In this document: positions 68 to 19,448 of the stretch, piece after piece
How positions within the stretch are numbered: position 1 is the stretch's first letter
Layout of the letters: each line of letters opens with the position of its first letter
Assembly (NCBI GenBank): GCA_017526745.1
Contig: JAFXQX010000021.1
Span: 1-35,096 of the forward strand
Length of the DNA: 35,096 nt
Direction of reading: 5' to 3'
DNA from: Lachnospiraceae bacterium
GTDB taxonomy: Bacteria > Bacillota > Clostridia > Lachnospirales > Lachnospiraceae
Made by a program: the position numbers and the translations under genes
The notes under the pieces: generated by a model
What the model saw: the letters and a program-made list of their open reading frames with translations, nothing else
Told to the model about the DNA's origin: nothing
The model's database searches: none

Positions 68-120
68 TTGATTTGTCGGATGACGGGTGGTATCATGTAT
101 ATAAGTTAGCCAGGCCTAAC
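68..120 (+). promoter_or_regulatory. Promoter and shared operator, site 1
   Basis: The -35 TTGATT (68-73) is followed after 17 bases by -10 TATCAT (91-96). The palindrome GTTAGC-CAGG-CCTAAC lies at 105-120, one base off the perfect form. A protein bound here would sit over the transcription start of the gene at 139. This is the first of eight related sites in the window. Confidence 0.75.
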
Positions 121-138
121 GGATGACAGGAGGGCATT

Positions 139-510
139 ATGGGTAATGTATTGACAATTGCGGCACTTGTTGCGATAGTGGCATTTGCCGTGTATGGAAC
201 GGTAAAGAGGATCAGGTTCGGATCGTCCTGCTGCGGGCAGAAGGATCCGCCGGATAAAAAGGTTAAGGTACAGGACAGAAATAAGGCGCATTATCCGTTC
301 AGATATGTGCTCGGTGTTGACGGAATGCACTGCGCCAACTGTGCCCGAAGGATCGAAAATGCGTTTAACAGGACAGAAGGAAGATGGGCAAAGGCAGATA
401 TATCAAAAAACGAGGTTGAACTTTGCTCCAAACAGGAAGAAGCCGAAAAAACGCTGTCAGATATAGTTTCCCAAGCAGGTTATACTATGGTATCATTTAC
501 TCAAAGTTAA
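139..510 (+). CDS. FeoB-associated-like membrane segment fused to HMA metal-binding domain
   Basis: This 123-residue protein has one N-terminal membrane helix (about residues 4-22), then a basic stretch and a Cys-Cys-Gly motif (about 31-33). That layout resembles FeoB-associated Cys-rich membrane proteins (PF12669-like). The rest (about 54-123) is a heavy-metal-associated domain with the metal-binding loop GMHCANC, as in copper chaperones and P-type ATPase N-termini. It is probably a membrane-tethered metal chaperone or sensor; the metal is not evident from sequence. The start is supported by AGGAGGG at 128-134, 4 bases ahead of the ATG. The gene stands alone, under a copy of the shared operator and bracketed by C-rich repeats. 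The fold calls are confident; the link to iron is inference from the N-terminus and the shared operator. Confidence 0.75.
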   Translation: MGNVLTIAALVAIVAFAVYGTVKRIRFGSSCCGQKDPPDKKVKVQDRNKAHYPFRYVLGVDGMHCANCARRIENAFNRTEGRWAKADISKNEVELCSKQEEAEKTLSDIVSQAGYTMVSFTQS

Positions 511-527
511 TTCTTTGAGACAGAGGG

Positions 528-660
528 CTGAGACAGGGGGGACGGAGAGACTGAGACAGGGGGACGGAGGTATTGTCTCAATGAATTGAGACAATACCTC
601 CGTCCCCCTGTCTCAGTCTCTCCGTCCCCCTGTCTCAGTCTCTCCGTCCCCTTGTCTCAG
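528..660. repeat. Large near-perfect inverted repeat plus 22-bp direct repeats
   Basis: The left arm 528-582 and right arm 585-638 are reverse complements over about 54 bases, with a 2-base centre and one extra G in the left arm. The right arm continues as direct copies of a 22-base unit (core CTCTCCGTCCCCCTGTCTCA) ending near 660. As RNA this would fold into a very long hairpin and could terminate transcription of the gene at 139. It is the same family as the edge repeat at 4-49. No gene is visible between 511 and 747. Confidence 0.85.
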
Positions 661-672
661 CCTAGTTCCGGA

Positions 673-722
673 TTGACATTGGGGCAAAGCGGTGATATCA
701 TCTGTAGTTAGCAATGGCTAAC
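673..722 (+). promoter_or_regulatory. Promoter and shared operator, site 2
   Basis: The -35 TTGACA (673-678), a 17-base spacer and the -10 TATCAT (696-701) form a strong promoter. The perfect palindrome GTTAGC-AATG-GCTAAC occupies 707-722, five bases beyond the -10. It controls the methyltransferase at 748 and probably the fusion gene behind it. Confidence 0.8.
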
Positions 723-747
723 CTAATCGCATTATAGGAGCATAATT

Positions 748-1392
748 ATGACAGACAGGGAATACAAGGAAATGTCGCGAAAGGAGTTCGCGAAAGCTGC
801 CAAAGTATATGAAACGGACAAAGGCGGCGTATACAAAATGTGTAAAAAGGACTATCCGGATGTCCTTGCCGAACTGGAGAAGGAGCCGTTCTCCGATCTG
901 CTTGACTGCGGATGCGGACCGGCACCGATGCTCACACTGCTGCATGAAAAGTATCCGGATAAGCATTACACGGGGATCGATCTTACCCCGGAGATGATAG
1001 AGACGGCCAAGGCCAAGAACATGAGTGATGTTGAACTTGTGGTAGGAGACTGTGAGAACCTCCCGTTCGGAGATGAGACATATGATGCCGTCATATGCTG
1101 CCAGAGCTTTCATCATTATCCGAATGTTCAGGATTTTTTCGACAGTGTATACAGGGTCCTGCGGCCGGGTGGACGTCTGATACTGCGTGATATGACTGCG
1201 AAAACAGCCCCGGTTCTGTGGTTCATGAACCATATTGAGATGCCGCTGATCAATCTTACCGGACACGGTGATGTTCATGTTTACAGCGTCGATGAGGTGA
1301 GAAAACTGTGCGAAAAGGCAGGACTCAGACTCGAGAAGGGCGAAAAGAGAGGCTTTCTCCGCCTTCACTGTGTGGCCAGAAAACCCGCATAA
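748..1392 (+). CDS. Class I SAM-dependent methyltransferase
   Basis: A 214-residue Methyltransf_11/UbiE-type protein. Motif I is DCGCGPA (residues 53-59), the acidic residue closing strand 2 is in GID (76-78), motif II is GDCENLPF (100-107), and the post-core RVLRPGGRLIL motif follows. It transfers a methyl group from S-adenosylmethionine, probably to a small molecule; the substrate cannot be read from sequence. AGGAG at 736-740 supports the ATG. It is the first gene after operator site 2, and the MBL-methyltransferase fusion begins 32 bases after its stop, so the two are probably co-transcribed. Methyltransferases recur in this island (1425, 15049, 22980), suggesting the transported compound or its ligand is methylated; that link is inference. 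Confidence 0.85.
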   Translation: MTDREYKEMSRKEFAKAAKVYETDKGGVYKMCKKDYPDVLAELEKEPFSDLLDCGCGPAPMLTLLHEKYPDKHYTGIDLTPEMIETAKAKNMSDVELVVGDCENLPFGDETYDAVICCQSFHHYPNVQDFFDSVYRVLRPGGRLILRDMTAKTAPVLWFMNHIEMPLINLTGHGDVHVYSVDEVRKLCEKAGLRLEKGEKRGFLRLHCVARKPA

Positions 1393-1424
1393 AAACAGGC
1401 AGGAAGTATCATGGAGGACTAAGA

Positions 1425-2942: not shown

Positions 2943-3044
2943 ACCCTTGGTGTCGCGACGATCTCGATTCATCAAACTTTTCATCGTATTTCCGGCCGCT
3001 TCCGCGCTGGCAGCATGGATCTGCAGCCTGTTCTGATCTGATCC

Positions 3045-3098
3045 TTGACAAAGATCCGCCGGTGTGTTAGTTTATATATGTTAGCTAACGACGTTAAC
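3045..3098 (+). promoter_or_regulatory. Promoter region and shared operator variant, site 3
   Basis: TTGACA at 3045-3050 is a good -35; the -10 is unclear (TAGTTT at 3068-3073 with a 17-base spacer). The compact palindrome GTTAGCTAAC lies at 3080-3089, followed by GTTAAC at 3093-3098, so several half-sites are packed together just ahead of the TetR gene at 3121. This could serve autoregulation or a global regulator. Confidence 0.6.
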
Positions 3099-3120
3099 AA
3101 ACGATACACGCAGGTAGCTT

Positions 3121-3729
3121 ATGCCAAGAGACAAGAGCACTAACCACATTAAGATCATGGCGGCAGCCAGAGAAGAGTTTATGGAAAAGGGCTATGAGAA
3201 AGCGTCCATGCGAAGCATAGCCGACCGCTGCGGGATGACCGCAGCAGGGATCTACAGGCACTGCAAGGATAAGGAAGATCTCTTCTGCCAGCTCGTAACT
3301 CCTGCCGAAGATAAACTGATGGAATGGGCTAAAGAGCATATTAAAAGGTACGCAGATCCGGCAAAAAAAGGTAAGAAGATCACATGGCAGGACTCCCATA
3401 TCGATATGATGAGAGAACTGGTATATCCGAACATGGTGGATTTTCACCTTCTTATCGCCAAGTCCAAGGGGAGCAGGTACGAAAACTTCCTGCACGATAT
3501 GACCGAAGAATCCCAGAACAGATTTCTCGATTATCTGGCAAAGCTCAGGAAGTCCGGAGCAAATGCGCCGAAAATCACACCGGTACAGCTTCATCTTCTG
3601 ATGACGGCATATATTACCGCATTGTTTGAACCGGTTGTTCACAATTATTCTTATGAGGAGGCCATCGACGCCCTTAGTGTGCTGGAAGCATTCTTCCTGC
3701 CGGGCTGGAAGCGTCTGATGAACCTGTAA
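3121..3729 (+). CDS. TetR/AcrR-family transcriptional regulator (TetR1)
   Basis: A 202-residue protein with an N-terminal TetR helix-turn-helix (about residues 10-56: A-R-E-E-F-x-x-K-G-Y-E-x-A-S, then IADRCGMTAAGIYRHCKDKEDLF), followed by an all-helical ligand domain with no recognisable signature. TetR proteins are usually ligand-released repressors of neighbouring transporters. It lies upstream of the first ABC pair, separated by a terminator-like hairpin and operator site 4. It resembles the other two TetR genes, and all three have the same place in their cassettes. The ribosome binding site is weak (AGG), which suits low expression. The ligand is unknown. Confidence 0.85.
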   Translation: MPRDKSTNHIKIMAAAREEFMEKGYEKASMRSIADRCGMTAAGIYRHCKDKEDLFCQLVTPAEDKLMEWAKEHIKRYADPAKKGKKITWQDSHIDMMRELVYPNMVDFHLLIAKSKGSRYENFLHDMTEESQNRFLDYLAKLRKSGANAPKITPVQLHLLMTAYITALFEPVVHNYSYEEAIDALSVLEAFFLPGWKRLMNL

Positions 3730-3763
3730 TATTCTTAGCGATAAATTCAATATTGAACGATAA

Positions 3764-3812: not shown

Positions 3813-3822
3813 GTTAGCTAAC
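3813..3822. promoter_or_regulatory. Shared operator, compact form, site 4
   Basis: The 10-base perfect palindrome GTTAGCTAAC lies between the TetR1 terminator and the first ABC pair, about 40 bases ahead of the chosen start. No convincing -35/-10 pair is visible here, unlike at most other sites. Confidence 0.6.
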
Positions 3823-3864
3823 AAAGAATATGAAATGTTAACAAACAAGAGAAAGGAAAGCATT

Positions 3865-5658
3865 ATGAATGAAGAGGTAACAAAAGAAGAGAAGAAATGG
3901 TTTAAAACATTGCTTTCTTACGCGAAGGGCAGTGGGGGAAGACTGGGATTATCGGTTGTCTTTTCGATGGTAAGCCTTATATCGGGGCTCGTACCATATT
4001 ACTGTGTGTACAGAATACTGGATGGGTATATCGCCGCAAATGCCGACAAGTCGCTTATCCTGCATTATTGCCTTACAGCATTTTTTGCGTATCTTGTAAA
4101 AGTCATCTGCTTCGGTATATCGACGGGGATATCGCATTATGTGGCGTTTAATGTTCTGGAGGGACTGAGGGTAAAGGTTTCGGATGTATTTTTAAAGGCT
4201 CCGCTCGGAGAAGTCTATTCGCATTCCATCGGACAGATAAAAAGCGTGATAGTTGATAAGATCGAGGACATTGAGCCGCCGCTTGCACACGTTGTCCCGG
4301 AAGGCGCCGGGCACATACTGCTTCCCATAGTCTGCTTTATTGCACTTGCGTTTGTTGATATCCGTGTTGCACTTGGTGCACTTGCGGCGCTCCCGCTCGG
4401 ACTGGTCTTTATGATGCTCACATTTTGGCTAAGTGGCAAGAATATGACCAAGTATCAGGAAGCAAATGCCAACATGAGCAGCATGATAGTTGAATACGTG
4501 GAGGGTATCGAGGTTATCAAAGCCTTCGGAAAGGCAGGAGTAAGCTATGAGAAGTTTGCTGGATCGATCAGGGATTACAGGGATTTTGTCATAGAGTGGC
4601 TTGAATCAACTTGGGTTACGATGAAACTTGCCTTTGCCTTCATGCCTGCGACGCTGCTCGGAGTTGTTCCCGTAAGCATTGTTCTCGTACAAAAAGGCAG
4701 TATGACGATATCGGAAATGGCACTTGCCGTAATGCTTGCCATGTCAATGGTCATCAGCATGGCGAAGATAGAAGTGTTTTCAAACGGACTTCGGCAGATG
4801 CAGTATACGGTGCTCGAAATTCAAAAACTGTTGAAGATAAAAAGCCTGCCGGAGCCTTCCTCCGATGATCTTCCGGATGGATATTCCATCGAGCTGAACG
4901 ATGTGCGTTTTTCATATGATGATGAAGAAGGCGAGGTGCTCCACGGGATCAATCTTGGCCTGAAAGAGGGAAGCTTTACGGCACTCGTTGGGCCGAGCGG
5001 AGGCGGAAAATCAACCGTAGCAAAACTCATCGCAAGATTCTGGGATGTAAGCGGCGGCACGATCAGTATCGGCGGGTGCGACATAAAAAACATGAAAGTT
5101 ACATCGCTTGCAAACATAGTAAGCTTCGTAACCCAGGATAATTTCCTGTTTGCAAGATCGATAAAAGAAAACATCCGGCTCGGCAAACCCGGTGCAAGCG
5201 ATGAAGAAGTGATAAAGGCTGCAAAGGCTGCATGCTGTGATGAATTCATAAGAAAGCTTCCGGACGGATATGATACATCGGCAGGAGAGGCGGGAAAGCG
5301 CCTGTCGGGAGGCGAACGCCAGAGGATAGCGATCGCCCGTATGATGCTGAAAAACGCACCGATAGTGATCCTTGATGAAGCAACGGCATTCACGGATCCC
5401 GAAAACGAAACGAAGCTTCAGGAATCCATTGCCAATCTGACAAAGGGTAAGACATTGCTTGTCATAGCACACCGGCTATCGACGATAAAGAATGCGGATA
5501 ATATCGTGGTGCTTGATGACGGCCGGATCGTTGCACAGGGGACGCAGGAGGAACTGATGGAGTCCTGTCCTTTATATAACAGAATGTGGCAGGCCCATAT
5601 AGGCGCAAGAAGCTGGGCGGCAGGAAATGCGGCAGCCGGACAGGTAAAGGAGGCGTAA
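3865..5658 (+). CDS. ABC transporter half-subunit, permease-ATPase fusion (pair 1, A)
   Basis: A 597-residue type IV (exporter-fold) ABC half-transporter. An N-terminal six-helix membrane domain (to about residue 340) is followed by a complete ATPase: Walker A GPSGGGKST near 375, Q-loop TQDNF, signature LSGGERQR near 479, Walker B IVILDEA near 500, and H-loop AHRLST near 535. ATG 3865 is preferred over an in-frame ATG 10 codons upstream because GAAAGGAAAG sits just ahead of it. The partner at 5661 starts 2 bases after the stop, so the pair should form a heterodimer. Pairs of this architecture include both exporters and the siderophore importers YbtPQ and IrtAB. The metal-linked neighbours favour import of a metal chelate, but direction cannot be read from sequence. 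Confidence 0.88.
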   Translation: MNEEVTKEEKKWFKTLLSYAKGSGGRLGLSVVFSMVSLISGLVPYYCVYRILDGYIAANADKSLILHYCLTAFFAYLVKVICFGISTGISHYVAFNVLEGLRVKVSDVFLKAPLGEVYSHSIGQIKSVIVDKIEDIEPPLAHVVPEGAGHILLPIVCFIALAFVDIRVALGALAALPLGLVFMMLTFWLSGKNMTKYQEANANMSSMIVEYVEGIEVIKAFGKAGVSYEKFAGSIRDYRDFVIEWLESTWVTMKLAFAFMPATLLGVVPVSIVLVQKGSMTISEMALAVMLAMSMVISMAKIEVFSNGLRQMQYTVLEIQKLLKIKSLPEPSSDDLPDGYSIELNDVRFSYDDEEGEVLHGINLGLKEGSFTALVGPSGGGKSTVAKLIARFWDVSGGTISIGGCDIKNMKVTSLANIVSFVTQDNFLFARSIKENIRLGKPGASDEEVIKAAKAACCDEFIRKLPDGYDTSAGEAGKRLSGGERQRIAIARMMLKNAPIVILDEATAFTDPENETKLQESIANLTKGKTLLVIAHRLSTIKNADNIVVLDDGRIVAQGTQEELMESCPLYNRMWQAHIGARSWAAGNAAAGQVKEA

Positions 5659-5660
5659 AA

Positions 5661-7427
5661 ATGTTCAGAACAGTAAAACGTATCATAGACTGGTGCGAGG
5701 GATTCAAAGCAAGTCTGTTTGTCGGTTTTATATTTTCATTTCTTTCATCATGGGCGGTGGCAGCACCTGTTGCTTATTCGGGATATGTGATAGGACAGAT
5801 CATAGGTGACGCAAGAAGCGGGAAGGGTGTCGATCCGATGCTGGCATGGAAGAGCCTTCTTATGATCCTGCTGACTGTACTTGCAAGATTTCTGTTTGAC
5901 TACCTGAAGGCCCGCTTTCATGAAAAGATAGGCTATGAACTTGTGGCAAGAGACCGCTTGAAGATCGGTGAGGCACTCAAAAGAGTATCACTAGGCTACT
6001 TCCAGACCAATGATACCGGAAGGATCCTCAATGCCATAACAACGGGACTTGCAACTCTTGAGAACATGGGTATACGTATGGTGGACGGATTTATCGGAGG
6101 GTATCTGAACTTCCTGTGCATATTGTTGTTCCTTGCATTCATAATCCCGGAATGTGCCCTGATCGCGATATGCGGTGTATTGGTCTCATTCGTGTTCCTT
6201 CTGATGATATCAAAGCACAGCAAAGATAACACAAAAGTACTGAATGAGGAAAATGAGCGTCTTACCAGAGCGGCGCTGGAATACACAAGAGGATTGCCGG
6301 TCGTTAAATCATTCGGAATGGAGGGAGCTTCGGCCAAGGATTTTAAAGATGCATGTTCAAGTGCAAAATCTATCGCACTGAAGATCGAATGGGGTTTCAT
6401 TCCGTATAACTGCCTGCATATATTTGCACTTAAGGCGGCAAGTGTATGGATGGTGATCGCGGTGATGTATGCAGGGCTCGCCGGAAAGCTCGAACTGTCC
6501 ATGGTGCTTATCGTTTCGTTCCTGTCGATGTCGATCTTTAACTCGGTGGAGCCTATAGCCGACAGCGCTCATGTCCTGTCGGTGATCGAAAATGCATTTG
6601 ATAAGATGGAGATGTTTTCCGACAGCAATCTTCTGGATGTCAAAGGCTCGGACATTAAATGCGAAAATCATGATATCGAGTTTAAGAATGTTGATTTTTC
6701 ATATTACACTGCAAGATCAACCGAGAACAGGAAGGTTCTGAAAGATGTTTCATTTGTTATCCCGCAAGGGACGACAACTGCGATCGTGGGACCCTCGGGA
6801 AGCGGTAAGACGACTATCTGCAATCTTATCGCAAGATTTTATGATGTAAGCTCTGGTACTATCACGCTCGGAGGTAGAGACGTGAAGGAATACAGCCTTG
6901 ACAGTCTGCTGTCAAATATCTCCATGGTGTTCCAGAATGTTTATCTGTTCAATGATACCGTCCGTGCAAATATCTGTTTCGGAAGAGATAATGTGTCCGA
7001 GGAGGAGATGATCGAGGCGGCAAAAAAAGCCCGGTGCCATGATTTTATCATGGATCTTCCAAACGGATACGATACGGTGATCGGTGAAGGCGGCGGCACT
7101 TTGTCGGGAGGACAGAAGCAGAGGATATCGATAGCAAGGGCAATACTGAAGAATGCTCCGATAATCATCCTTGATGAATCTACAGCGAGCATCGATCCTG
7201 AAAACGAGCACCTGATCCAGGGCGCCATTTCCGAGCTTTCAAAAGGAAAGACAGTGATCATAATCGCACACAGGCTGGCAACCATAGAAGCAGCCGATCA
7301 GATACTCGTGGTTGATGACGGACGGATAATCGAAAAAGGAAAACACAGCGAACTTGTAAACCTGGGCGGCAAATATGCCGCATTTGTCAGGATCAGGCAG
7401 GAAGCCGAAAACTGGCAGATCGCCTGA
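5661..7427 (+). CDS. ABC transporter half-subunit, permease-ATPase fusion (pair 1, B)
   Basis: A 588-residue partner of the preceding subunit with the same layout: six membrane helices, then an ATPase with Walker A GPSGSGKTT (near 376), signature LSGGQKQR (near 481), Walker B IIILDES with the catalytic Glu kept, and AHRLAT. Both nucleotide sites of pair 1 therefore look competent, unlike heterodimers with one degenerate site. The start is fixed by AAGGAGG at 5647-5653; an open frame reaching back into the upstream gene is discounted. The C-terminal tail ends in a Trp-x-Ile-Ala motif shared with the B subunit of pair 2. Confidence 0.88.
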   Translation: MFRTVKRIIDWCEGFKASLFVGFIFSFLSSWAVAAPVAYSGYVIGQIIGDARSGKGVDPMLAWKSLLMILLTVLARFLFDYLKARFHEKIGYELVARDRLKIGEALKRVSLGYFQTNDTGRILNAITTGLATLENMGIRMVDGFIGGYLNFLCILLFLAFIIPECALIAICGVLVSFVFLLMISKHSKDNTKVLNEENERLTRAALEYTRGLPVVKSFGMEGASAKDFKDACSSAKSIALKIEWGFIPYNCLHIFALKAASVWMVIAVMYAGLAGKLELSMVLIVSFLSMSIFNSVEPIADSAHVLSVIENAFDKMEMFSDSNLLDVKGSDIKCENHDIEFKNVDFSYYTARSTENRKVLKDVSFVIPQGTTTAIVGPSGSGKTTICNLIARFYDVSSGTITLGGRDVKEYSLDSLLSNISMVFQNVYLFNDTVRANICFGRDNVSEEEMIEAAKKARCHDFIMDLPNGYDTVIGEGGGTLSGGQKQRISIARAILKNAPIIILDESTASIDPENEHLIQGAISELSKGKTVIIIAHRLATIEAADQILVVDDGRIIEKGKHSELVNLGGKYAAFVRIRQEAENWQIA

Positions 7428-9920: not shown

Positions 9921-9963
9921 TTGACAGGAAAAATATTACGGCGTAATATTACACCGTAATATT
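9921..9963 (+). promoter_or_regulatory. Promoter with private palindromic operator of TetR2
   Basis: TTGACA (9921-9926), a 17-base spacer and TAATAT (9944-9949) form a near-consensus promoter. Three half-sites of AATATTAC/GTAATATT overlap it: AATATTACG-G-CGTAATATT is a perfect palindrome at 9932-9950, and AATATTAC-ACC-GTAATATT is a second at 9945-9963. A bound dimer would cover the -10, so negative autoregulation by TetR2 is likely. I saw no copy elsewhere in the window. Confidence 0.8.
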
Positions 9964-9982
9964 TTGCGTTAAGGGTGACCAT

Positions 9983-10645: not shown

Positions 10646-10669
10646 TTTAGTTAGCATACGCTAACTAAA
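10646..10669. promoter_or_regulatory. Shared operator, most extended palindrome, site 5
   Basis: Arms TTTAGTTAGC and GCTAACTAAA surround the 4-base centre ATAC, giving a perfect 10+4+10 palindrome. The core GTTAGC-ATAC-GCTAAC is at 10650-10665. TATTAT at 10636-10641 could be a -10, but the matching -35 is poor. It controls ABC pair 2. Confidence 0.8.
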
Positions 10670-10694: not shown

Positions 10695-12446
10695 ATGAAA
10701 GAAGAAAAGAGAAGAGGTACACTTGGCTGGGTGATGGAATTTGCCGGGATGAACAAAAATGCATATCTGGCAAGCGTGACCATGGCCATCATAAGTGTTG
10801 CGGCAGGATTCGTTTCGTATCTGTTTGTGGCAAACATAATAAGGGCACTGACAGACGGTAACAGGGATATGCAATACTACCTGATACAGTGCGGATATAT
10901 TACCTTGTGCTGGCTTGTAAACAAGATGGCACATACAATATCAACCACTATGTCGCACAAGGCTACATTCGGTGTGTTGGCTCAGATAAGAAGGATGCTG
11001 ACCAAAAAGCTAAGTCTTATGCCGCTCGGAGATGTGCTTGATGATTCGTCGGGTTCATACAAGAACATCATCGTTGAGCGTGTGGATTCCGTGGAGACGA
11101 CACTTGCTCATATCATACCGGAAGTGATATCAAATGCGATCGTCCCGGTGGGGATATTTGTCCTGATGCTGAAGGTAAACTGGAAGCTTGCACTTTTGTC
11201 GCTTCTGTCGGTCCCCCTGGGAGCCTTATTCTACGGATTGATGATGGTGGGAGCGACAGACAGCTTCAGAAATACCATAGAGAAGACAAAAGCGTTAAAT
11301 GACACCGCTGTGGAGTATATCAACGGGATAGAGGTAATAAAAGCTTTTGGAAAAACAAAGACTTCATATGAGAAATTCATATTTGCGGCAAAGGAGGGAG
11401 CAGACTGTTTCATAGAGTGGATGAGAAGATGCAACTTATGGCAGAACCTTGCCATGACGCTTTTGCCGGCTCAGCTTTTGTCACTTCTTCCCTTTACGGG
11501 GTGGTTCTATCTGACCGGAAGGATTGACGGTGCGGACGCTCTTTTGATGATCATCTTAACTCTTGGACTGGTTTCTCCGTTCATGATAATAGCCGGTCAT
11601 GTGGACAATATGGGCAAGATGGGGTCGATCGTAAAAGAAGTGGTAACAATCCTCGAAAAGCGTGAAATGCAGCGCCCCGACAAAATGAATGAGTTTCCGA
11701 ACGGAAGTGATATTGAATTTCGTAATGTTCATTTCGGATATAAGGACCAGGAAGTATTACACGGCGTTAACCTTACGATAAAAGAGGGGACAGTAAATGC
11801 CCTCGTCGGACCGTCAGGTTCGGGAAAATCAACGATCGCCAAACTGATCGCCTCCTTCTGGGATGTCGACAGCGGAGAGGTGTTATATGGCGGAGTCGAT
11901 ATCAGGGATATTCCGCTTGACGAATATAATAAGCACATCGCATACGTTTCCCAGGATAACTATCTGTTTGATGAAACCGTTATGGAGAATATCCGGATGG
12001 GAAATCCCAAGGCGTCGGACGAGGATGTTATAAATGCGGCAAAATCATGCGGCTGTCATGATTTTATAATGAATCTTGAAAAAGGATATGACACGATAGC
12101 GGGAGGTGCAGGCGGACATCTTTCGGGCGGTGAAAGACAGAGGATAAGCATAGCAAGAGCCATGCTTAAGAATGCTCCTGTTGTGATACTTGATGAGGCC
12201 ACGGCATATACCGATCCTGAAAATGAGGCGCTCGTTCAAAAATCGGTCGCAAAGCTTATACGCAAAAAGACACTCATAGTTATCGCACACAGATTATCCA
12301 CGATAGCTTCGGCAGATCAGATCATAGTGATAGATGACGGTACCGTAACCGCTGTCGGCACACAGAATGAACTGTTAAACAACTGCCCGCTGTACAGGAA
12401 TATGTGGGAAGCTCATATTTCGTCAAAAGATTCGGAGGTGGCATGA
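10695..12446 (+). CDS. ABC transporter half-subunit, permease-ATPase fusion (pair 2, A)
   Basis: A 583-residue exporter-fold half-transporter: six membrane helices, then an ATPase with Walker A GPSGSGKST (near 371), signature LSGGERQR (near 475), Walker B VVILDEA and AHRLST. The text around the signature, the D-loop (DPENE) and the tail (ending MWEAHIS) closely follow the A subunit of pair 1, so the two are paralogues. The ribosome site is AGAAAGGA, about 10 bases before the ATG. It overlaps its partner by 4 bases (ATGA), implying translational coupling and a heterodimer. Substrate and direction are unknown; the shared operator argues for the same physiological trigger as pairs 1 and 3. Confidence 0.88.
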   Translation: MKEEKRRGTLGWVMEFAGMNKNAYLASVTMAIISVAAGFVSYLFVANIIRALTDGNRDMQYYLIQCGYITLCWLVNKMAHTISTTMSHKATFGVLAQIRRMLTKKLSLMPLGDVLDDSSGSYKNIIVERVDSVETTLAHIIPEVISNAIVPVGIFVLMLKVNWKLALLSLLSVPLGALFYGLMMVGATDSFRNTIEKTKALNDTAVEYINGIEVIKAFGKTKTSYEKFIFAAKEGADCFIEWMRRCNLWQNLAMTLLPAQLLSLLPFTGWFYLTGRIDGADALLMIILTLGLVSPFMIIAGHVDNMGKMGSIVKEVVTILEKREMQRPDKMNEFPNGSDIEFRNVHFGYKDQEVLHGVNLTIKEGTVNALVGPSGSGKSTIAKLIASFWDVDSGEVLYGGVDIRDIPLDEYNKHIAYVSQDNYLFDETVMENIRMGNPKASDEDVINAAKSCGCHDFIMNLEKGYDTIAGGAGGHLSGGERQRISIARAMLKNAPVVILDEATAYTDPENEALVQKSVAKLIRKKTLIVIAHRLSTIASADQIIVIDDGTVTAVGTQNELLNNCPLYRNMWEAHISSKDSEVA

Positions 12447-14182
12447 TGTTAAAAACACTTAAAATGTATTTTCAGTTTTGTAATGATACAAACCGGAAGA
12501 AACTGTATAAGGCAATGATACTTGGCGTATTGAAAGCTATGTTCGCAACGCTGCGTATCCCGGCGATAGCAGTCATATTACAGGGGATCCTTAATAAGGA
12601 TATGTCCATGAAAAATGTCTGGATGTCACTCGGTATCATGTGCCTCTCCGTTGCCGGACAGGTTCTTGTGGGATTAAAGACAACAATGCTTCAGACAGAA
12701 GCGAGCTATAATACCAGCAGCGGGAAACGAGTTGAGATCGCAGAACACTTAAGGTATCTGCCGATGGGATTCTTTAATGCGAACAGCCTCGGCAGGATCA
12801 CAAATATAACCACGAATACCATGGAGATGCTTGCGGATGTGGCTACTCTTGTAGTCATGATCACAACGCAGGGGATCATTACAACTTCGGTCATATTTAT
12901 CTGTATACTGTTTTTTGATCCGCGAATAGCTCTTATTCTGCTTGCCGGAGTAGCGGTGTTCGCATTCTTTAATTCCATGATGCAAAAAGCCACAATACCC
13001 GTGGCACCGAGAAAATCAAAGGCCGATGAGGGACTGGTCGCAGCTGTGATAGAGTACATCCAGGGCATCGCAGAAGTGAAGAACTTTAATCTGACCGGAA
13101 AATGTGCCAAAAAGCTTGAAGAAGCGATCTCGGAGAAGCAGGCAGCTGATACCAGACTTGAGTATTCCGTTATTCCGTTCATGTTCCTTCAGGGAATCAC
13201 AACGAAGCTTACGGGTGTGGTAATGGCTCTGGCTTCGGTATACTTCTGCCTTAACGGCACTATGCCGTTACTGTATGCGATACTGATGATCATATCGTCC
13301 TTCATGGTATATGAGAGTCTGGATATGATGGGCGGTTTTTCGGCACTCATGCGAAATGTAAACATCGTCGTAACACAGGCAAACGAAGTCCTGTCAATAC
13401 CGCCCATGGATATAGAAGGAGAAGACCACAGGCCGGAGAATATGGATATTGAACTTGAGAATGTGTCGTTCGCCTATGAGGACAAGACCATTATTGACGA
13501 TGTATCACTCAGAATACCGGCTAATACGACGACCGCGATTGTGGGGCCGTCCGGTGGAGGTAAAACAACCCTGACAAATCTTATGGCAAGGTTCTGGGAT
13601 GTGAGATCGGGCAAAGTTCTTCTGGGTGGAAAGAATGTAAAAGAATACAGTTTTGATTCGCTGATGAAGAATTTCAGCTTTGTTTTTCAAAGAGTATACC
13701 TGTTTGAGGATACGATAGCCAACAACATCCGTTTCGGAGAGCCGGACGCATCAATGAACAAGGTTATTGAGGCGGCAAAGAAAGCACGGTGTCATGATTT
13801 TATAATGAGTCTTCCCGACGGATATGATACGGTGATCGGGGAAGGAGGCGCATCCCTTTCCGGAGGTGAAAAACAGCGTATATCCATTGCACGGGCGATC
13901 ATGAAAGATGCGCCTATCATCATACTTGACGAAGCGACGGCAAATGTGGATCCCGAAAATGAGGCGGAGCTTACCAAAGCAATAGAAGAACTGACAAGGA
14001 ATAAAACCATAATCATGATCGCCCACAGGCTTAAGACGGTAAGGCATGCCGATCAGATCATTGTCGTATCAGACGGAAAAGTTGTGCAAAGGGGAACACA
14101 TGATGAACTGGTAAACCGGGACGGGATATACAGGGATTTTGTCAGTGAACGAAGAGAAGCCGTATCCTGGAAGATAGCTTGA
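12443..14182 (+). CDS. ABC transporter half-subunit, permease-ATPase fusion (pair 2, B)
   Basis: A 579-residue partner of the preceding gene. The membrane domain is followed by Walker A GPSGGGKTT (near 366), signature LSGGEKQR (near 471), Walker B IIILDEA and AHRLKT; all catalytic residues are present. The start is ATG 12443, or the adjacent ATG 12446 which is better spaced from GGAGG at 12434-12438. The tail ends Trp-Lys-Ile-Ala, like the Trp-Gln-Ile-Ala of the pair 1 B subunit, supporting cassette duplication. Confidence 0.88.
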   Translation: MMLKTLKMYFQFCNDTNRKKLYKAMILGVLKAMFATLRIPAIAVILQGILNKDMSMKNVWMSLGIMCLSVAGQVLVGLKTTMLQTEASYNTSSGKRVEIAEHLRYLPMGFFNANSLGRITNITTNTMEMLADVATLVVMITTQGIITTSVIFICILFFDPRIALILLAGVAVFAFFNSMMQKATIPVAPRKSKADEGLVAAVIEYIQGIAEVKNFNLTGKCAKKLEEAISEKQAADTRLEYSVIPFMFLQGITTKLTGVVMALASVYFCLNGTMPLLYAILMIISSFMVYESLDMMGGFSALMRNVNIVVTQANEVLSIPPMDIEGEDHRPENMDIELENVSFAYEDKTIIDDVSLRIPANTTTAIVGPSGGGKTTLTNLMARFWDVRSGKVLLGGKNVKEYSFDSLMKNFSFVFQRVYLFEDTIANNIRFGEPDASMNKVIEAAKKARCHDFIMSLPDGYDTVIGEGGASLSGGEKQRISIARAIMKDAPIIILDEATANVDPENEAELTKAIEELTRNKTIIMIAHRLKTVRHADQIIVVSDGKVVQRGTHDELVNRDGIYRDFVSERREAVSWKIA

Positions 14183-14205: not shown

Positions 14206-14256
14206 TGGACTTTTGTTTGCAGAAGTGATATCATACATAGGTTAGCAAAGACTAAC
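14206..14256 (+). promoter_or_regulatory. Promoter and shared operator, site 6
   Basis: TGGACT (14206-14211), 17 bases, then TATCAT (14229-14234), then GTTAGC-AAAG-ACTAAC at 14241-14256 with one deviation from the perfect palindrome. The geometry is nearly the same as at site 2. It serves the three-gene unit 14285-16195. Confidence 0.75.
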
Positions 14257-14284: not shown

Positions 14285-15052
14285 ATGACTTTTGAAGAGT
14301 TCGGAAAAGAAAACAAAAAAACGATGATGCTGCTGCCGGGAACATGTTGCGACTGGCAGACAAACTTCGGGACTGTTTTTCCGCGTTTGGCGGAAAAGTA
14401 CCATCTGATCTGTGTGAACTATGACGGGTTTGACGGCAGTGACAGTATATTTCCGGATATGATCACGGTCACAGAAAAGATTGAAAAGTATATCATAGAA
14501 AATCACGACGGCCGGCTTGATGCTGCGCTTGGATCTTCACTCGGATCCAGTTTTGTGGGGCAGCTGATCCAAAGAAGAAATGTGCATATCGATCACGGGA
14601 TATTCGGGAGCCCGGATCTTGACCAGAGCGGGAAGCTGTCGGCCAAACTCCAGTCCATGCTGGTGGTGCCGCTTCTTACAAGCTTTACCAAAAACGATAA
14701 GAAACAGAAGAGATCCAAGAATCTTTTGATGAAAACATTTCTTATGGATGAGGAGACGGCGGATAAGTTCATGGAGTGTTTTGCGAAGTTTTCTCCCGTA
14801 TCGATCAGGAATGAGTACTATACCGATCTGCTCACATATCTGGAGGATGACATTAAAGTTGAACATACAAAGGCCCATTTTATATATGCAAATAAAATGG
14901 GTGAAAAATATCTTAAACGTTACAGAAGATATTTCCGTGATCCGGATATCAGGGAATTTGACATGCAGCATGAGCAGTGGCTGTTCGGGGGAGAGAAATA
15001 TGCAGCTTTGGTGCTAGATGCGATATATGATTTTATGGAGATGCCGGTATGA
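14285..15052 (+). CDS. Alpha/beta-fold hydrolase
   Basis: A 255-residue alpha/beta hydrolase. The early LLPGTCCDWQTNF segment forms the oxyanion-hole strand; the nucleophile elbow is G-S-S-L-G with Ser85; the probable catalytic His is His229 in DMQHEQW. It should cleave an ester, thioester or amide of a small molecule; the substrate is not recognisable. GGGGTGA precedes the ATG with good spacing. It is the first gene of a unit under operator site 6, overlapping the next gene by 4 bases (ATGA). In a metallophore context it could act as an intracellular esterase that releases metal, but this is inference. Confidence 0.75.
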   Translation: MTFEEFGKENKKTMMLLPGTCCDWQTNFGTVFPRLAEKYHLICVNYDGFDGSDSIFPDMITVTEKIEKYIIENHDGRLDAALGSSLGSSFVGQLIQRRNVHIDHGIFGSPDLDQSGKLSAKLQSMLVVPLLTSFTKNDKKQKRSKNLLMKTFLMDEETADKFMECFAKFSPVSIRNEYYTDLLTYLEDDIKVEHTKAHFIYANKMGEKYLKRYRRYFRDPDIREFDMQHEQWLFGGEKYAALVLDAIYDFMEMPV

Positions 15053-15549
15053 AAAACTATGTAAAAGAAGGACAAAAACTCCCTATGTTCGGAATCGGAC
15101 CGTATCTGATAGCGGGCATGGGAATTATAACCCTGATCTGTATGATCCTGTCGAATAATTTACTGATCTCCGGGAAACTTGAGGGAATATGGGTCACACT
15201 CTTCAGAATTGCCGGGAGCCTTCTGATAGTTTCGGGAGTTATCATATGGTATATAGGCGCTGTTAGATCGGATATGGATGACAGTATAACCGAGAACAGA
15301 CTGAAAACCGACGGCATTTACGCATGGGTCAGAAATCCGATGTACAGCGGATTGTGGATCATCATTACGGGAGTGGGCATGATGTGTCATAATGCATGGA
15401 TCCTTATCACGCCGGTAATCAACTGGGGACTTATGACGGTAGTTCTCATCAACACTGAAGAGAAGTGGCTTTGCGGATTGTACGGCAAAGAATACGACGA
15501 GTATAGGAAGCATGTAAACAGATGTATCCCCTGGAAAAGACATCGCTGA
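15049..15549 (+). CDS. ICMT/PEMT-family integral membrane methyltransferase
   Basis: A 166-residue membrane protein with about four helices and the signature of isoprenylcysteine carboxyl methyltransferase/PEMT-like proteins: TDGIYAWVRNPMYSG (about 87-101), then the C-terminal E-E-x-W-L, YGKEYDEY and R-C-I-P-W block. It uses SAM to methylate a lipophilic or membrane-associated substrate, which cannot be named here. It is translationally coupled to the hydrolase upstream (ATGA) and followed after 31 bases by the thiazoline-carboxylate hydrolase-like gene. Confidence 0.8.
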   Translation: MKNYVKEGQKLPMFGIGPYLIAGMGIITLICMILSNNLLISGKLEGIWVTLFRIAGSLLIVSGVIIWYIGAVRSDMDDSITENRLKTDGIYAWVRNPMYSGLWIIITGVGMMCHNAWILITPVINWGLMTVVLINTEEKWLCGLYGKEYDEYRKHVNRCIPWKRHR

Positions 15550-15580
15550 AAAGAAACCGACTACGGAAGGAGATGTATTA

Positions 15581-16195
15581 ATGGATCTTGATAAGAAAAT
15601 TGACATTAAAGAAGGACTGATCGCCATAACGGGTAAGGATGAAGCGGAGAAGATCTGGCTGAGGGCGAAGGAGAAATTAAAACAGATCGAAGAAAAGTAT
15701 GCGGGTATTTCGAAGAAAGAACAGATGCATACGGGTTTTATTTTTCCATGCGCGGTGATACAGCTTGCAATAAAAGAAATAAAGGGTGATACGGAACTCG
15801 GTTATAAAGTCATTTCCGAATACTCCTGGGCCAAGTCGAGGAAAACGGGTGCAAAACTTCGTAAAATGTCCAAAATCCCCGGATTCAACAGCTTTTTTGT
15901 TAAAACGTGGGGTCCTGTCAGCAGAAAGGCTTTCGGAGGGGATGCGGGGTTTAAAAATGTATTTTATCCGAAGAAAAAAGGTGAATTCAGGATGGATATA
16001 ACAGCGTGTCCTTACAACAGGTATTTTACCGAACTGGGTACACCGGAGCTTACCAAGATATTCTGCATCAATGATGAATGCGCCTATGGAGATATCCCCG
16101 GCCTTGAGTTTATAAGACATACGACGCTCGGTAAGGGCGGTGATAAGTGCGATTTCTATATCCGCGTAAAGAATGGACCTGCGGGACGGGGTTAG
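15581..16195 (+). CDS. L-2-amino-thiazoline-4-carboxylic acid hydrolase-family protein
   Basis: A 204-residue protein with the C-terminal signature of the ATC hydrolase family (PF14196-like): DITACPYNRYFTELG with Cys143, FCINDE with Cys162, Asp165 and Glu166, a later LEFIRHTTLGKGG stretch, and KCDFYI with Cys190-Asp191. The named family member opens the thiazoline ring of 2-amino-thiazoline-4-carboxylate during cysteine production, but most members are uncharacterised. AAGGAG at 15567-15572 supports the start. It is the last gene of the unit under operator site 6. A relic of a second family member lies at 25684. A role in opening thiazoline rings of an imported metallophore is a hypothesis. 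Confidence 0.8.
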   Translation: MDLDKKIDIKEGLIAITGKDEAEKIWLRAKEKLKQIEEKYAGISKKEQMHTGFIFPCAVIQLAIKEIKGDTELGYKVISEYSWAKSRKTGAKLRKMSKIPGFNSFFVKTWGPVSRKAFGGDAGFKNVFYPKKKGEFRMDITACPYNRYFTELGTPELTKIFCINDECAYGDIPGLEFIRHTTLGKGGDKCDFYIRVKNGPAGRG

Positions 16196-16204
16196 TGGTC
16201 CACA

Positions 16205-16257
16205 TTGACAGGATGAGGATTTGATGATATACTGCCGACGTGTTAGCAGATGCTAAC
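16205..16257 (+). promoter_or_regulatory. Promoter and shared operator, site 7
   Basis: TTGACA (16205-16210), a 17-base spacer and TATACT (16228-16233) make a strong promoter. The perfect palindrome GTTAGC-AGAT-GCTAAC follows at 16242-16257, extended to TGTTAGC/GCTAACA. It controls DUF3793 and flavodoxin. Confidence 0.85.
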
Positions 16258-16280
16258 AATCAGACACAACGGAGGTGAGT

Positions 16281-16835
16281 ATGTCAGAAGAGCTGATCGT
16301 GGATAATTGTTCTCCCACGCTTGCGGGGATTAAAACGGGCAATCTTTTCTCGGTGAAGATCACGGAGGGGATTGATATTATCAGCGAGGTCAGACGGCTT
16401 AACCGCGAACTGAGAAAAAAGGGTATTCGCGTGATACCGTTAAAAAGGACCGAAGAATATGCGTTGATATATTTGTATCGCCCCAAGTACCTGAAAAGGG
16501 ATCTTAATGATCCGGAGGCTCTCAGGATCCTGAGAAACAGAGGGTATCATTGCGACAGCCCCGAACACTGTATAGTCCAACTGATCGGAAGACTCAGGGA
16601 CAGCAAATCTTTTCCACACGAGATCGGCCTGTTTCTCGGATATCCGCCATCGGACGTTGCATGTTTTATCAAGCATCCGTGCGAAGGAGTCAAATGCTGC
16701 GGTTGCTGGAAGGCGTTTTCAAAGCCGGATGCGGCAAGGAAAACCTTCAGCAGATTCGAGATGTGCACCAAAGCATACAGACAGATGAACAGGCAAGGCA
16801 AATCTCTGACACAGCTTGCCGTCAGAACAGGATAA
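16281..16835 (+). CDS. DUF3793-family protein
   Basis: A 184-residue protein recognised as DUF3793 (PF12672-like) from its C-terminal block: HEIGLFLGYPPSDVACFI, then CCGCWKAF (about 135-142), then F-x-x-C-T-K-A-Y, and the closing G-x-S-L-x-x-L-A. No enzymatic function is established. In Clostridia this family is often found beside a flavodoxin and in iron-responsive loci, and a flavodoxin follows here after 15 bases. GGAGG at 16271-16275 fits ATG 16281 better than the GTG two codons earlier. Operator site 7 lies directly upstream. The several Cys residues could bind metal or a cluster, but this is not shown. Confidence 0.8.
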   Translation: MSEELIVDNCSPTLAGIKTGNLFSVKITEGIDIISEVRRLNRELRKKGIRVIPLKRTEEYALIYLYRPKYLKRDLNDPEALRILRNRGYHCDSPEHCIVQLIGRLRDSKSFPHEIGLFLGYPPSDVACFIKHPCEGVKCCGCWKAFSKPDAARKTFSRFEMCTKAYRQMNRQGKSLTQLAVRTG

Positions 16836-16850
16836 AGGAGGAAGTATATT

Positions 16851-17273
16851 ATGAGTAAGATAGCAGTAGTATATTGGAGCGGAACAGGTAATACGGCAGC
16901 TATGGCAAAGGCCGTTGAGGATGGAGCAAAAAACCGCGGCGCGGATGTTGCCGTGTTCGGACCGGATGCATTTTCTGCTGATAAGGTATCTGAATTTGAT
17001 GCCATCGCGTTCGGATGCCCGGCAATGGGTGCCGAAGTGCTCGAGGAATCTTCATATGATCCTATGTTCACATCCATCGAAGGCGAGCTTTCAGGCAAGA
17101 AGATCGCACTTTTCGGTTCATATGGCTGGGGAGACGGCCAGTGGATGAGAGACTGGGAAGAACGGTGTAAAGCTGCCGGAGCAAAGCTTGCATGTGATAG
17201 TGTCATGGCCAACAATGCCCCCGGTGAGGATGCGCTCGAGGAGTGCAAAGACCTCGGAGCGGCATTGGCATAA
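16851..17273 (+). CDS. Short-chain flavodoxin
   Basis: A 140-residue flavodoxin. The FMN-phosphate loop is YWSGTGNTAAMA (about 8-19), the second flavin loop is CPAMGAE (about 58-64), and the third is FGSYGWGDG. It carries single electrons on FMN in the cytoplasm and commonly replaces ferredoxin when iron is scarce. AAAGGAGG supports the start, and it is clearly co-transcribed with DUF3793 from operator site 7. Its place in this regulon is the strongest clue that the shared operator responds to iron or another metal. Confidence 0.9.
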   Translation: MSKIAVVYWSGTGNTAAMAKAVEDGAKNRGADVAVFGPDAFSADKVSEFDAIAFGCPAMGAEVLEESSYDPMFTSIEGELSGKKIALFGSYGWGDGQWMRDWEERCKAAGAKLACDSVMANNAPGEDALEECKDLGAALA

Positions 17274-17288
17274 TCCTTTTTTTCTTAA

Positions 17289-17465: not shown

Positions 17466-17469
17466 AAAG

Positions 17470-18411
17470 GTGAAGATACTTGTTTTCGGAACGGGAGCGA
17501 TTGGGTCGGTTATGACCCATTATTTATGTAAGGCGGGAAATGATGTTACGGTCATTGCCAGGTCCACGTTTAACGAACTCAGTAAAAACGGACTTGTGAT
17601 CAGACATTATCTACAGAAGAAGACGACCGTAGATCATCCGAAGGTCAGAAGAGAAGCAGATGATAAACATTATGACATTGTGTTTTCAGTCATGCAGGGT
17701 CAGCAGCAGCTTGCAGTATTACCCGTGCTGGCATCCCTGAACACTAGTCTTATTGTGCTTGTCGGCAATAACCTGGAAACCGGCAAGTGCGAGGAGATGC
17801 TCGGAAACAAGCACCACCTGTATGGCTTTCAGGATTCGGCAGGGCACCGGGAGAAAGGCGTAACCATCGCCGGACGTCTTCCCGTCACGAACTTAACAGT
17901 CGGAGGCCTGCATGGCGCACCCTCGTTCCCGGATGCCGAAAAGCTAAGGATAGCCTTTAATGTTAAAGGGTATAAGATCACGCCCGTTGATAATATGTAC
18001 GCATATTACATGTATCACCTGGCCGAGCTCATGCCGTACTGTTATCTATGTTATCATCTTGACTGTGACCTGAAGAGGGCCAAAAGGAGTCAGATCCGGA
18101 TGATCATGACTGCCACCAAAGAGTGTTTTGATTATCTGAAGAGCCGGAATATTCCTGTTACGCCGGTAGGCGAGGATGCATATTATGACGGCGGGATAAG
18201 GAAGGTGATGATGCAGACCCTTTACAGCGTTATGTCCAAAACGGTGCTCGGAAGACTCATGGTTTCAGATCACTGCAAGAATGGTATTATGGAAATGAAA
18301 TACCTGGATGAGAAGTTTGAAGAGTACAAAAGGGAAAATCCCGGAGCCCAAATGCCAACATGGGACAGTATGAGAAAATGGGCAATCCCCGCATTTGAAA
18401 CGGAAAAATGA
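17470..18411 (+). CDS. Ketopantoate reductase-like (ApbA/PanE family) oxidoreductase
   Basis: A 313-residue protein whose N-terminus, VKILVFGTGAIGSVM, holds the Rossmann G-x-G-x-x-G (residues 7-12), followed by the strand-2 segment VTVIARS. The C-terminal half is helical, as in 2-dehydropantoate 2-reductases, but the usual Lys/Asn/Glu signature is not obvious, so pantothenate synthesis is not assured. Many paralogues of this family in Clostridia act on unknown substrates. The GTG start at 17470 has AGGAG 8 bases upstream and gives a standard Rossmann N-terminus; an ATG 21 codons upstream falls inside the preceding remnant and is rejected. A small membrane reading frame overlaps its stop (ATGA). 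Confidence 0.7.
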   Translation: MKILVFGTGAIGSVMTHYLCKAGNDVTVIARSTFNELSKNGLVIRHYLQKKTTVDHPKVRREADDKHYDIVFSVMQGQQQLAVLPVLASLNTSLIVLVGNNLETGKCEEMLGNKHHLYGFQDSAGHREKGVTIAGRLPVTNLTVGGLHGAPSFPDAEKLRIAFNVKGYKITPVDNMYAYYMYHLAELMPYCYLCYHLDCDLKRAKRSQIRMIMTATKECFDYLKSRNIPVTPVGEDAYYDGGIRKVMMQTLYSVMSKTVLGRLMVSDHCKNGIMEMKYLDEKFEEYKRENPGAQMPTWDSMRKWAIPAFETEK

Positions 18412-18594
18412 TCTTAACTATAATATTGACACTGTTGATGTGTATATTGATGTTTCTTCCAGCATTATCTGCCGGAGACCGAGGGATGTAAGGGATATCA
18501 CGATTTCGGGTTCAACCGTAAAGAACAGATCAGACAGGTCATCAAGTTACCGTTTGTTGCCCTGCTGACCGCATGGATCTGCTCGTTGTTTTAA
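18408..18594 (+). pseudogene. Frameshifted small two-helix membrane protein
   Basis: An ATG overlapping the previous stop (ATGA) opens a hydrophobic frame, MILTIILTLLMCILMFLPAL, that ends after 27 codons. One frame over, a coding-like stretch runs from about 18460 to TAA 18592 (HDFGFNRKEQIRQVIKLPFV, then ALLTAWICSLF). Joined by a single +1 shift they would give a roughly 60-residue protein with two membrane helices. It is most simply a recently broken gene; programmed frameshifting or a sequencing error is possible. I do not recognise the family. Confidence 0.4.
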
Positions 18595-18682
18595 AATAGA
18601 TTGTACTATCAGGAGCTTTACTGTGGTTTGCGCGGAAGCTGTCATAGATCCGGATCAATAAAACGGATGTTGCGAAAATCAC

Positions 18683-18740
18683 TTGACAATCATGGTAGGC
18701 ACTGATAATATAATTACCGATAATTGAATTATCGGTAATT
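18683..18740 (+). promoter_or_regulatory. Promoter with private 29-bp palindrome of TetR3
   Basis: TTGACA (18683-18688), 17 bases, then TAATAT (18706-18711). Immediately after is a perfect palindrome: AATTACCGATAATT (18712-18725), a central G, and AATTATCGGTAATT (18727-18740). A dimer bound here would block the transcription start, so autorepression by TetR3 is likely. Nothing else was found in the remainder of the 18412-18755 gap beyond the broken gene above. Confidence 0.85.
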
Positions 18741-18755
18741 TTTCATGGGGTTATT

Positions 18756-19373
18756 ATGTCGGTAAGAGATACGAGTATAGATCCGAAACTGTTACAAAGT
18801 GCAAGGGAAGAGTTCAAAGAAAAAGGATTTCTTAAGGCTGATCTCAAATCCATCTGCGACAATGCGGGTGTTACAACCGGAGCAGTTTATAAGAGATATA
18901 AAGGGAAAGAAGAACTCTTTTGTGCAGTTGTTGAAGGAGTTGTAAAGGCTCTTGATGATTTTCTCGACAATCGGTCCGAAAGTGATTTTTCATCCTTAAG
19001 CGATGGCGAGATCAGAGAGTCATGGAAAATGAGCTATGAGAATATGATCCCTATGTTCAGAATGCTCAGAAGCTTCGGTGATGATTTTAAGATCCTGATA
19101 GATAAGAGTGCCGGGACAAGATTTGAGAATTTTAATCACGAATATGTGATAAAAATGAGCTATGCATATGAGCACTTTTATAAGGAAGCCTACAGGCGCG
19201 GTATCGCCAAAGCAAAGGTTGACCGCGAAGAGTTTCATATTCTTCTGACATCATTCTGGGATTCAATATGTGAACCGTTTGTACATGATATGCAGAAAAA
19301 AGAGATGGAGGAGCACTGCCGGGTGATGTGCAGGTTCTTTGACTGGGCATCTGTCATTAAAATGACCCCATAA
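18756..19373 (+). CDS. TetR/AcrR-family transcriptional regulator (TetR3)
   Basis: A 205-residue TetR protein. The DNA-binding part (about 10-56) reads SAREEFKEKGFLKADLKSIC, then DNAGVTTGAVYKRYKGKEELF; the rest is a helical ligand domain resembling TetR1 in arrangement (FKILIDKSAGTRFENFNHEY against the TetR1 stretch FHLLIAKSKGSRYENFLHDM), so these two are probably paralogues. GGGG at 18747-18750 precedes the ATG. It is autoregulated through the 29-bp palindrome if the usual TetR pattern holds. The last codons and the stop overlap a degenerate C-rich repeat. It lies upstream of ABC pair 3. Confidence 0.87.
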   Translation: MSVRDTSIDPKLLQSAREEFKEKGFLKADLKSICDNAGVTTGAVYKRYKGKEELFCAVVEGVVKALDDFLDNRSESDFSSLSDGEIRESWKMSYENMIPMFRMLRSFGDDFKILIDKSAGTRFENFNHEYVIKMSYAYEHFYKEAYRRGIAKAKVDREEFHILLTSFWDSICEPFVHDMQKKEMEEHCRVMCRFFDWASVIKMTP

Positions 19374-19395
19374 CCCCGTCCCCGTGGTTCATTGT
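19362..19395. repeat. Degenerate C-rich repeat, cluster C
   Basis: ATGACCCCATAACCCC followed by GTCCCCGTGGTTCATTG matches the second half of clusters A and B (consensus GTCCCCATGGTCCAT). It overlaps the TAA stop of TetR3. No complete CCTATACCCCC unit is retained. Confidence 0.55.
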
Positions 19396-19398
19396 ATT

Positions 19399-19416
19399 TG
19401 CCGTCAATCGACGGCA
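19399..19416. terminator. Hairpin between TetR3 and ABC pair 3
   Basis: A perfect 7-base stem, TGCCGTC against GACGGCA, with loop AATC. It is followed by an A-run rather than a T-run on the plus strand, so it is not a classic terminator in the gene direction. It occupies the same position as the hairpins of cassettes 1 and 2. Confidence 0.35.
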
Positions 19417-19432
19417 TAAAAAATCTCGTCGA

Positions 19433-19448
19433 GTTAGCGATGGCTAAC
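19433..19448. promoter_or_regulatory. Shared operator, site 8
   Basis: The perfect palindrome GTTAGC-GATG-GCTAAC lies 28 bases ahead of the start of ABC pair 3. A weak promoter may lie upstream (TTGTAT 19392-19397, 17 bases, CATAAA 19415-19420). Spacing to the gene resembles that at site 5. Confidence 0.8.

Follow-up and report, generated by a model that had tools for sequence, protein, structure and literature searches.

In a contig of a Lachnospiraceae bacterium (assembly GCA_017526745.1, contig JAFXQX010000021.1), which was analysed at its full length of 35,096 nucleotides and is called the window below, one spaced palindrome recurs in front of genes for an HMA-domain protein, methyltransferases, ABC transporters and a flavodoxin. 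The question raised by this locus is whether these copies form the shared operator of one regulated gene set and which kind of repressor would read it. The answer favoured here, with a rough probability of 0.7, is that a metal-dependent, probably iron-responsive repressor of the DtxR/IdeR type controls six units of the window through the sequence GTTAG-N6-CTAAC, with one dimer at each site. The conserved operator itself is regarded as real, a regulon of six units in the window is the most likely reading of it, and this regulon is most likely a variant form of DtxR/IdeR control, not a kind of its own. The window is the entire contig C29 of the genome under study (G000; 2.615 Mb in 43 contigs); other genomes are coded G and fetched loci L, each with a three-digit number.

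The spaced palindrome and its promoters

Two lengths of the motif are distinguished: a 12-base form, GTTAGC-N4-GCTAAC, and its 10-base core, GTTAG-N6-CTAAC. The six spaced sites (Table 1) were found where a preliminary description of this DNA had placed them, each 5' of a plus-strand unit. Those at 707, 10650, 16242 and 19433 are perfect and those at 105 and 14241 carry one deviation each; since both deviations fall in the base flanking N4, all six are exact for the core. The units that follow hold, in turn, the HMA/FeoB-associated gene, two methyltransferase genes, ABC pair 2, the genes for hydrolase-like, PEMT and ATC (aminothiazoline carboxylate) hydrolase proteins, the DUF3793/flavodoxin genes and ABC pair 3. 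With up to two mismatches allowed, the window contains 7 matches against a mean of 0.82 in shuffled sequences, and none of 100 shuffles reaches 7.

A scan of the whole genome, which the preliminary description had called for, found the motif to be dense in this contig: all four exact matches to the 12-base form lie in contig C29, and with up to one mismatch this form occurs 12 times, compared with 0 for a reversed control. Eight exact copies of the core are present in the genome, six within the 35-kb window and the others at C7:59742 and C12:13659. Allowing one mismatch in the core gives 24 copies against 24 for the control; because this form is no commoner than its reversed control, the signal resides in exact core matches. 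The earlier statement that genes beyond 23.8 kb lack the motif holds apart from a weak seventh copy (GTTGGC...). This one-mismatch copy (GTTGGCGGAGGCTAAC, 25522-25537), located between a minus-strand GTPase gene (HflX-like by domains) and an open reading frame (ORF) at 25684, is probably due to chance.

Hexamers resembling a -10 box end 5-8 bases upstream of four of the six sites (105, 707, 14241 and 16242), and good -35 boxes are found at 105, 707 and 16242. The promoter at site 105 reads TTGATT-17-TATCAT and ends 8 bases upstream, the one at site 707 reads TTGACA-17-TATCAT and ends 5 bases upstream, and those at 10650 and 19433 are weak by consensus. Since each of the four sites begins 5-8 bases after its hexamer, a dimer bound there would lie over the transcription start. 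In the proposed mechanism, a repressor dimer loaded with metal, most likely Fe2+, would cover each of the six promoters at its start region in metal-replete cells; when iron is short it would leave, and the ABC transporters, the methyltransferase and hydrolase genes, the HMA protein and the DUF3793-flavodoxin unit would be made.

Recurrence of the site in related loci and genomes

The spacing and position of the site are conserved well beyond the window. A set of 38 loci (543 kb) was used in which each locus holds a relative of TetR2, one of three TetR proteins encoded in the window; their records are labelled Lachnospiraceae, Saccharofermentans, Oscillospiraceae or Ruminococcaceae, Treponema, Coriobacteriaceae and others. 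Here the motif occurs 82 times, while the reversed control gives 0 copies and other spacings give 0-3. Among 16 spacings tested in the TetR2, FeoB and DtxR loci, a spacing of 6 alone is in excess, with 19 copies against 0 in 30 FeoB loci and 12 against 0-1 in 29 DtxR loci. All 37 testable loci have the motif (32 exact, 5 with one mismatch) in the 250 bases that follow the TetR2 relative, as against a single locus for the control with one mismatch allowed; one of the 38 loci is too short. Site 4 has a counterpart at the same place in the relative L041, sites 5' of DUF3793 are also found in L045, L049, L060 and L061, and sites after TetR3 relatives in L044, L045, L057, L072 and L076.

On a broader scale, 22 of 41 genomes (G000 included) carry the 12-base form, with 57 exact sites, and a count over 294 genomes of the order finds it in 133 (328 sites), as against 18 (20 sites) with the control. 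The consensus of a 125-site profile is RGTTAGC-N4-GCTAACY, with a purine before the repeat in 92% and a pyrimidine after it in 72%. Some FeoB and DtxR loci hold two to four TTAG-N6-CTAA sites, neighbours being mostly 29-35 bases apart.

Many of the genes beside these sites in relatives point to a link of the motif to metal. Of the 57 exact sites in the 41-genome set, at least 13 have a FeoB_N match no more than 1 kb away, and these come from 11 of the 22 genomes with the motif; for three sites a DtxR match is found at a distance of about 450 bases or less. L042 carries two sites 5' of feoB, and the genes after feoB encode an HMA-like protein (26% blast match), a DtxR protein, DUF6110 and a P-type ATPase. 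Of 54 ORFs adjoining sites in other places, nine match DUF2325, six FeoA, five DUF3793, four ABC transporters, two FeoB, two HMA and one FTR1. The proposal that a shared operator marks a co-regulated, metal-linked set is well supported by the density of sites in the contig, their conserved position across many genomes, the exact spacing and the adjacency of feoA, feoB and dtxR in other genomes.

Table 1. Positions of the spaced sites, the compact elements and the likely TetR operators in the window.
Feature	Sequence	Position	Strand	Context
Spaced site 1	GTTAGCCAGGCCTAAC	105..120	+	5' of the FeoB-associated/HMA protein gene (139-510)
Spaced site 2	GTTAGCAATGGCTAAC	707..722	+	5' of methyltransferase and metallo-beta-lactamase/methyltransferase genes (748-2942)
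Spaced site 3	GTTAGCATACGCTAAC	10650..10665	+	between TetR2 and ABC pair 2 (10695-14182)
Spaced site 4	GTTAGCAAAGACTAAC	14241..14256	+	5' of the hydrolase-like/PEMT/ATC hydrolase unit (14285-16195; Pfam)
Spaced site 5	GTTAGCAGATGCTAAC	16242..16257	+	5' of DUF3793-flavodoxin (16275-17273)
Spaced site 6	GTTAGCGATGGCTAAC	19433..19448	+	between TetR3 and ABC pair 3 (19459-22948)
Compact element	GTTAGCTAAC	3080..3089	+	5' of TetR1 (3121-3729)
Compact element	GTTAGCTAAC-N14-GTTAAC	3813..3822	+	5' of ABC pair 1 (3835-7427)
Likely own operator of TetR2	AAAATATTACGGCGTAATATTACACCGTAATATTTT	9930..9965	+	near-perfect 36-base palindrome
Likely own operator of TetR3	around ATTACCGATAATTGAATTATCGGTAAT	18710..18742	+	long near-perfect palindrome just before TetR3

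Candidate readers of the operator

The geometry of the site points to the DtxR family. The single-dimer site of IdeR, TTAGGNNNNCCTAA, is half of a 19-bp sequence, TTAGGTTAGSCTAACCTAA (PMC8464063, which is cited here, like PMC2628430 and PMC10317159, for the available portion of its text). The spaced motif TTAGCNNNNGCTAA equals this half-site in repeat length and spacer, with GCTAA replacing CCTAA. Literature searches for GTTAG-N6-CTAAC found no report of it, the nearest being the available part of PMC8464063, so that "undescribed-looking", as the regulon had been called, fits the motif but not its geometry, which is that of a described IdeR/DtxR half-site. One DtxR-family protein with both domains is encoded in G000 (C32:46059-46433) and would be the reader there. 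Its recognition helix is SRPSVSRAM, and it keeps the equivalents of Cys102, Glu105 and His106 (ligand numbering as in PMC8464063 and PMC2628430), which are invariant among 12 aligned DtxR proteins, most of them with helices of the type S[KR]PSVS. The site-linked DtxR proteins of L162, L171, L172, L173 and L177 have Met10 and Cys102, whereas position 10 is Asn in L168 and L178 and Asp in L042. Gln43 of IdeR contacts the first C of the site, yet is dispensable (PMC8464063); its equivalent here is mostly Arg, but also Asn, Val, Ile or Lys, and such residues may fit the variable first base of the repeat.

Several observations weigh against a DtxR-type reader. The canonical sequence TTAGGN4CCTAA occurs 0 times in the window and in the TetR2, FeoB and DtxR loci, no site was found at the dtxR or feoB gene of G000 itself in the stretches fetched, and 19 of the 30 FeoB loci, that of G000 included, are without an exact motif. 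Some of the 54 site-adjacent ORFs have no known link to iron (SBP_bac_5, MatE, SLH, enolase, HPr and others). The G000 protein, with Asp instead of Met at position 10, combines ligands of IdeR and MntR; because of this substitution its metal is uncertain. Even by alignment search, no DtxR was found in the motif-bearing genomes G003 (four exact sites), G104 (one) and G026 (one), all of them drafts that are 69-97% complete (G003 92%, G026 69%), and only weak matches were obtained for motif-bearing G066, G213 and G230. Fur-family matches are present in 12 of the 22 motif-bearing genomes, strongly so in G027, G032 and G037, and the motif is thus not a simple replacement for Fur. DtxR itself is found in 275 of the 294 genomes of the order; the motif is present in 4 of the 19 genomes without it and in 129 of the 275 with it (p = 0.03; p = 0.17 for two or more sites), a co-occurrence that is weak because DtxR is nearly universal in the order, and too weak to serve as proof. 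A DtxR subgroup tied to the motif was also considered and is unsupported by a tree of 31 DtxR proteins, in which the site-linked proteins do not split off cleanly and fall in several branches; the G000 protein sits in a branch without a nearby site.

Some of these points would suit a repressor outside the DtxR family that is linked to metal or redox state, such as an Rrf2 or MarR protein: there are the three motif-bearing genomes with no detectable DtxR, the dtxR gene of G000 has no nearby site, and DtxR also occurs where the motif is absent. Such a reader is nevertheless unlikely, being disfavoured by the exact IdeR half-site geometry, by the adjacency of dtxR to sites in several genomes and by the draft state of the three genomes concerned, no search for Rrf2 or MarR proteins having been made. 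A Fur-family operator is the least probable of the alternatives and is given hardly any weight here. It would agree with the iron-linked gene set, with the Fur-family matches in 12 motif-bearing genomes and with the general pattern that low-GC Gram-positives mostly use Fur as their iron repressor (PMC10317159), but ten of the 22 motif-bearing genomes have no Fur-family match, the eight Fur-gene loci fetched contain 0 exact motifs, and Fur was rejected as the reader in G000, where no match was found at E≤0.001.

The placement of the motif directly after the TetR2 relative in every testable locus, together with the common setting of a TetR gene ahead of an ABC pair or of other genes for transporters, raises the possibility that the TetR proteins encoded by the ABC pairs each read the shared palindrome. 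In L053 (10522-16843), for instance, a TetR2 relative and the motif are followed by a Trep_Strep/CbiQ (ECF-type) transporter together with a large ATPase protein; in L052, L055, L056 and L059 the ORFs after the TetR2 relatives resemble those of L053 in size and order. The idea is judged quite improbable. A TetR2 relative is missing, at E≤1e-15, from 11 of the 22 genomes that carry the motif, the motif also stands at feoB, feoA and dtxR, and the TetR proteins that precede the same motif differ in their recognition helices (TNGAFYAHF, TTGAVYKRY and SVSGLYKHF). In addition, TTAG-N6-CTAA is present in 0 of the 14 upstream regions checked, and the palindromes that stand 5' of the TetR2 and TetR3 genes themselves are different ones. 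With the motif occurring without a TetR2 relative, unlike helices and separate operators, the adjacent TetR was set aside as a probable reader. The palindrome before TetR2 probably is its autoregulatory operator, and GTAATATTAC-type repeats are kept at this position in six of six relatives examined (L041-L046). The one before TetR3 is built around ATTACCGATAAT/ATTATCGGTAAT, and similar palindromes occur in four of four relatives examined (L044, L045, L057 and L072).

The compact elements belong to this discussion rather than to that of the spaced sites. The preliminary description had joined both forms into one family that marks eight units, including all three ABC pairs. The compact copies exist, but 8 of 100 shuffles yield as many window matches (up to one mismatch), and L071, with a TetR1 that is 78% identical, does not preserve this palindrome: there GTTAGCGAAC is found at TetR1 and GTAAGCTAAC at ABC pair 1. 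After each of these two L071 elements comes a GTTA[AG]C element, at a distance matching the window, and the one 5' of ABC pair 1 reads GTAAGCTAAC-N14-GTTAAC, as in the window arrangement. The compact element at 3080 directly precedes the ATG of TetR1, the same place as that of the long palindromes of TetR2 and TetR3, and can be read as all or part of a putative TetR1 operator outside the spaced set. This operator-like position and the divergence in L071 speak against pooling the compact with the spaced sites, so that the shared motif stands at six units, not eight, with two of the three ABC pairs among them. Under DtxR-type control of these six, TetR1-3 would form a second, local layer with operators of their own, probably sensing the substrate of each transporter.

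Tagged genes and comparison with known systems

The product of 139-510 has an HMA domain, its FeoB_associated match lying below the family cut-off, and among the NCBIfam matches listed for 10 window proteins only flavodoxin reaches its cut-off; the production of flavodoxin under iron shortage is well known. Outside the window, the site at C7:59742 (L005:1501-1516) lies 5' of an HlyD-like membrane-fusion gene, and in G006 (L029) a 69% identical gene also has a 5' site, its flanks having diverged; the motif in G000 thereby marks the island and at least this one outside unit, whose link to iron is unclear. Proteins of about 93 amino acids are encoded directly 3' of the motif in L201, L202, L207, L213 and L224. 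Some of them may belong to the DUF2325 family, which has no known role and, judged by its place beside the sites, looks iron-linked. Relatives of the ATC hydrolase (window 15581-16195) recur in many related islands, and a role in opening the thiazoline rings of foreign siderophores is conceivable for them. A plasmid origin of the island was dropped, as positions 1-25000 of the window have no near match among the plasmids searched.

The motif tags DUF3793, DUF2325, the ATC hydrolase relatives and the paired ABC half-transporters as probably iron-linked, and it offers a candidate operator through which iron could be controlled in anaerobes of the gut and rumen, where the available part of the review PMC10317159 would predict Fur. 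It also bears on the action of IdeR at half-sites, a question left open in the accessible text of PMC8464063. As a wider and tentative hypothesis, rated at somewhat less than even odds, iron control in Lachnospiraceae and families related to it would be run not by Fur but by a short DtxR-type repressor that reads single-dimer half-sites, alone or about three helical turns apart, some of these genomes being Fur-less, and iron-acquisition islands with a TetR layer would carry the operator between lineages (Lachnospiraceae, Saccharofermentans and possibly Treponema).

Paired exporter-type ABC half-transporters are shared with the iron-carrier importers IrtAB and YbtPQ. Full-length eukaryotic chains score higher, as they contain two halves each; of the chains ranked below them, IrtA or 6p6i_A comes first for ABC1a, ABC2a, ABC3a and ABC2b by small margins; 6p6i_A is taken here to be YbtP, and IrtA and YbtP to be iron-siderophore importers. 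ABC3b, unlike the other halves searched, is nearest Sav1866/MsbA. Since the same affinity is seen for ABC1a, which lacks a spaced site, this is a hint only, suggestive of iron-carrier uptake as the direction of the window pairs.

Among DtxR-family regulators, MntR resembles the G000 protein in being short and in that it can have Asp10, and its chain 2h09 is the best solved match. The G000 protein differs in keeping Cys102 where MntR has Glu (PMC10317159), and the site-adjacent genes are iron-linked rather than manganese transporters. In comparison with IdeR and the actinobacterial examples of DtxR, the present sites belong to another phylum, use a GCTAA repeat with a variable first base and outer R/Y, and stand singly or mostly 29-35 bases from their neighbours instead of overlapping in a 19-bp box, and the DtxR proteins, at about 120-140 amino acids, are too short for the C-terminal SH3-like domain. 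With the half-site of Saccharopolyspora erythraea IdeR, they have in common two inverted 5-base repeats sharing CTAA, a 4-base spacer, room for one dimer, a position near the promoter start, iron genes adjacent in relatives and a DtxR-family protein in the genome.

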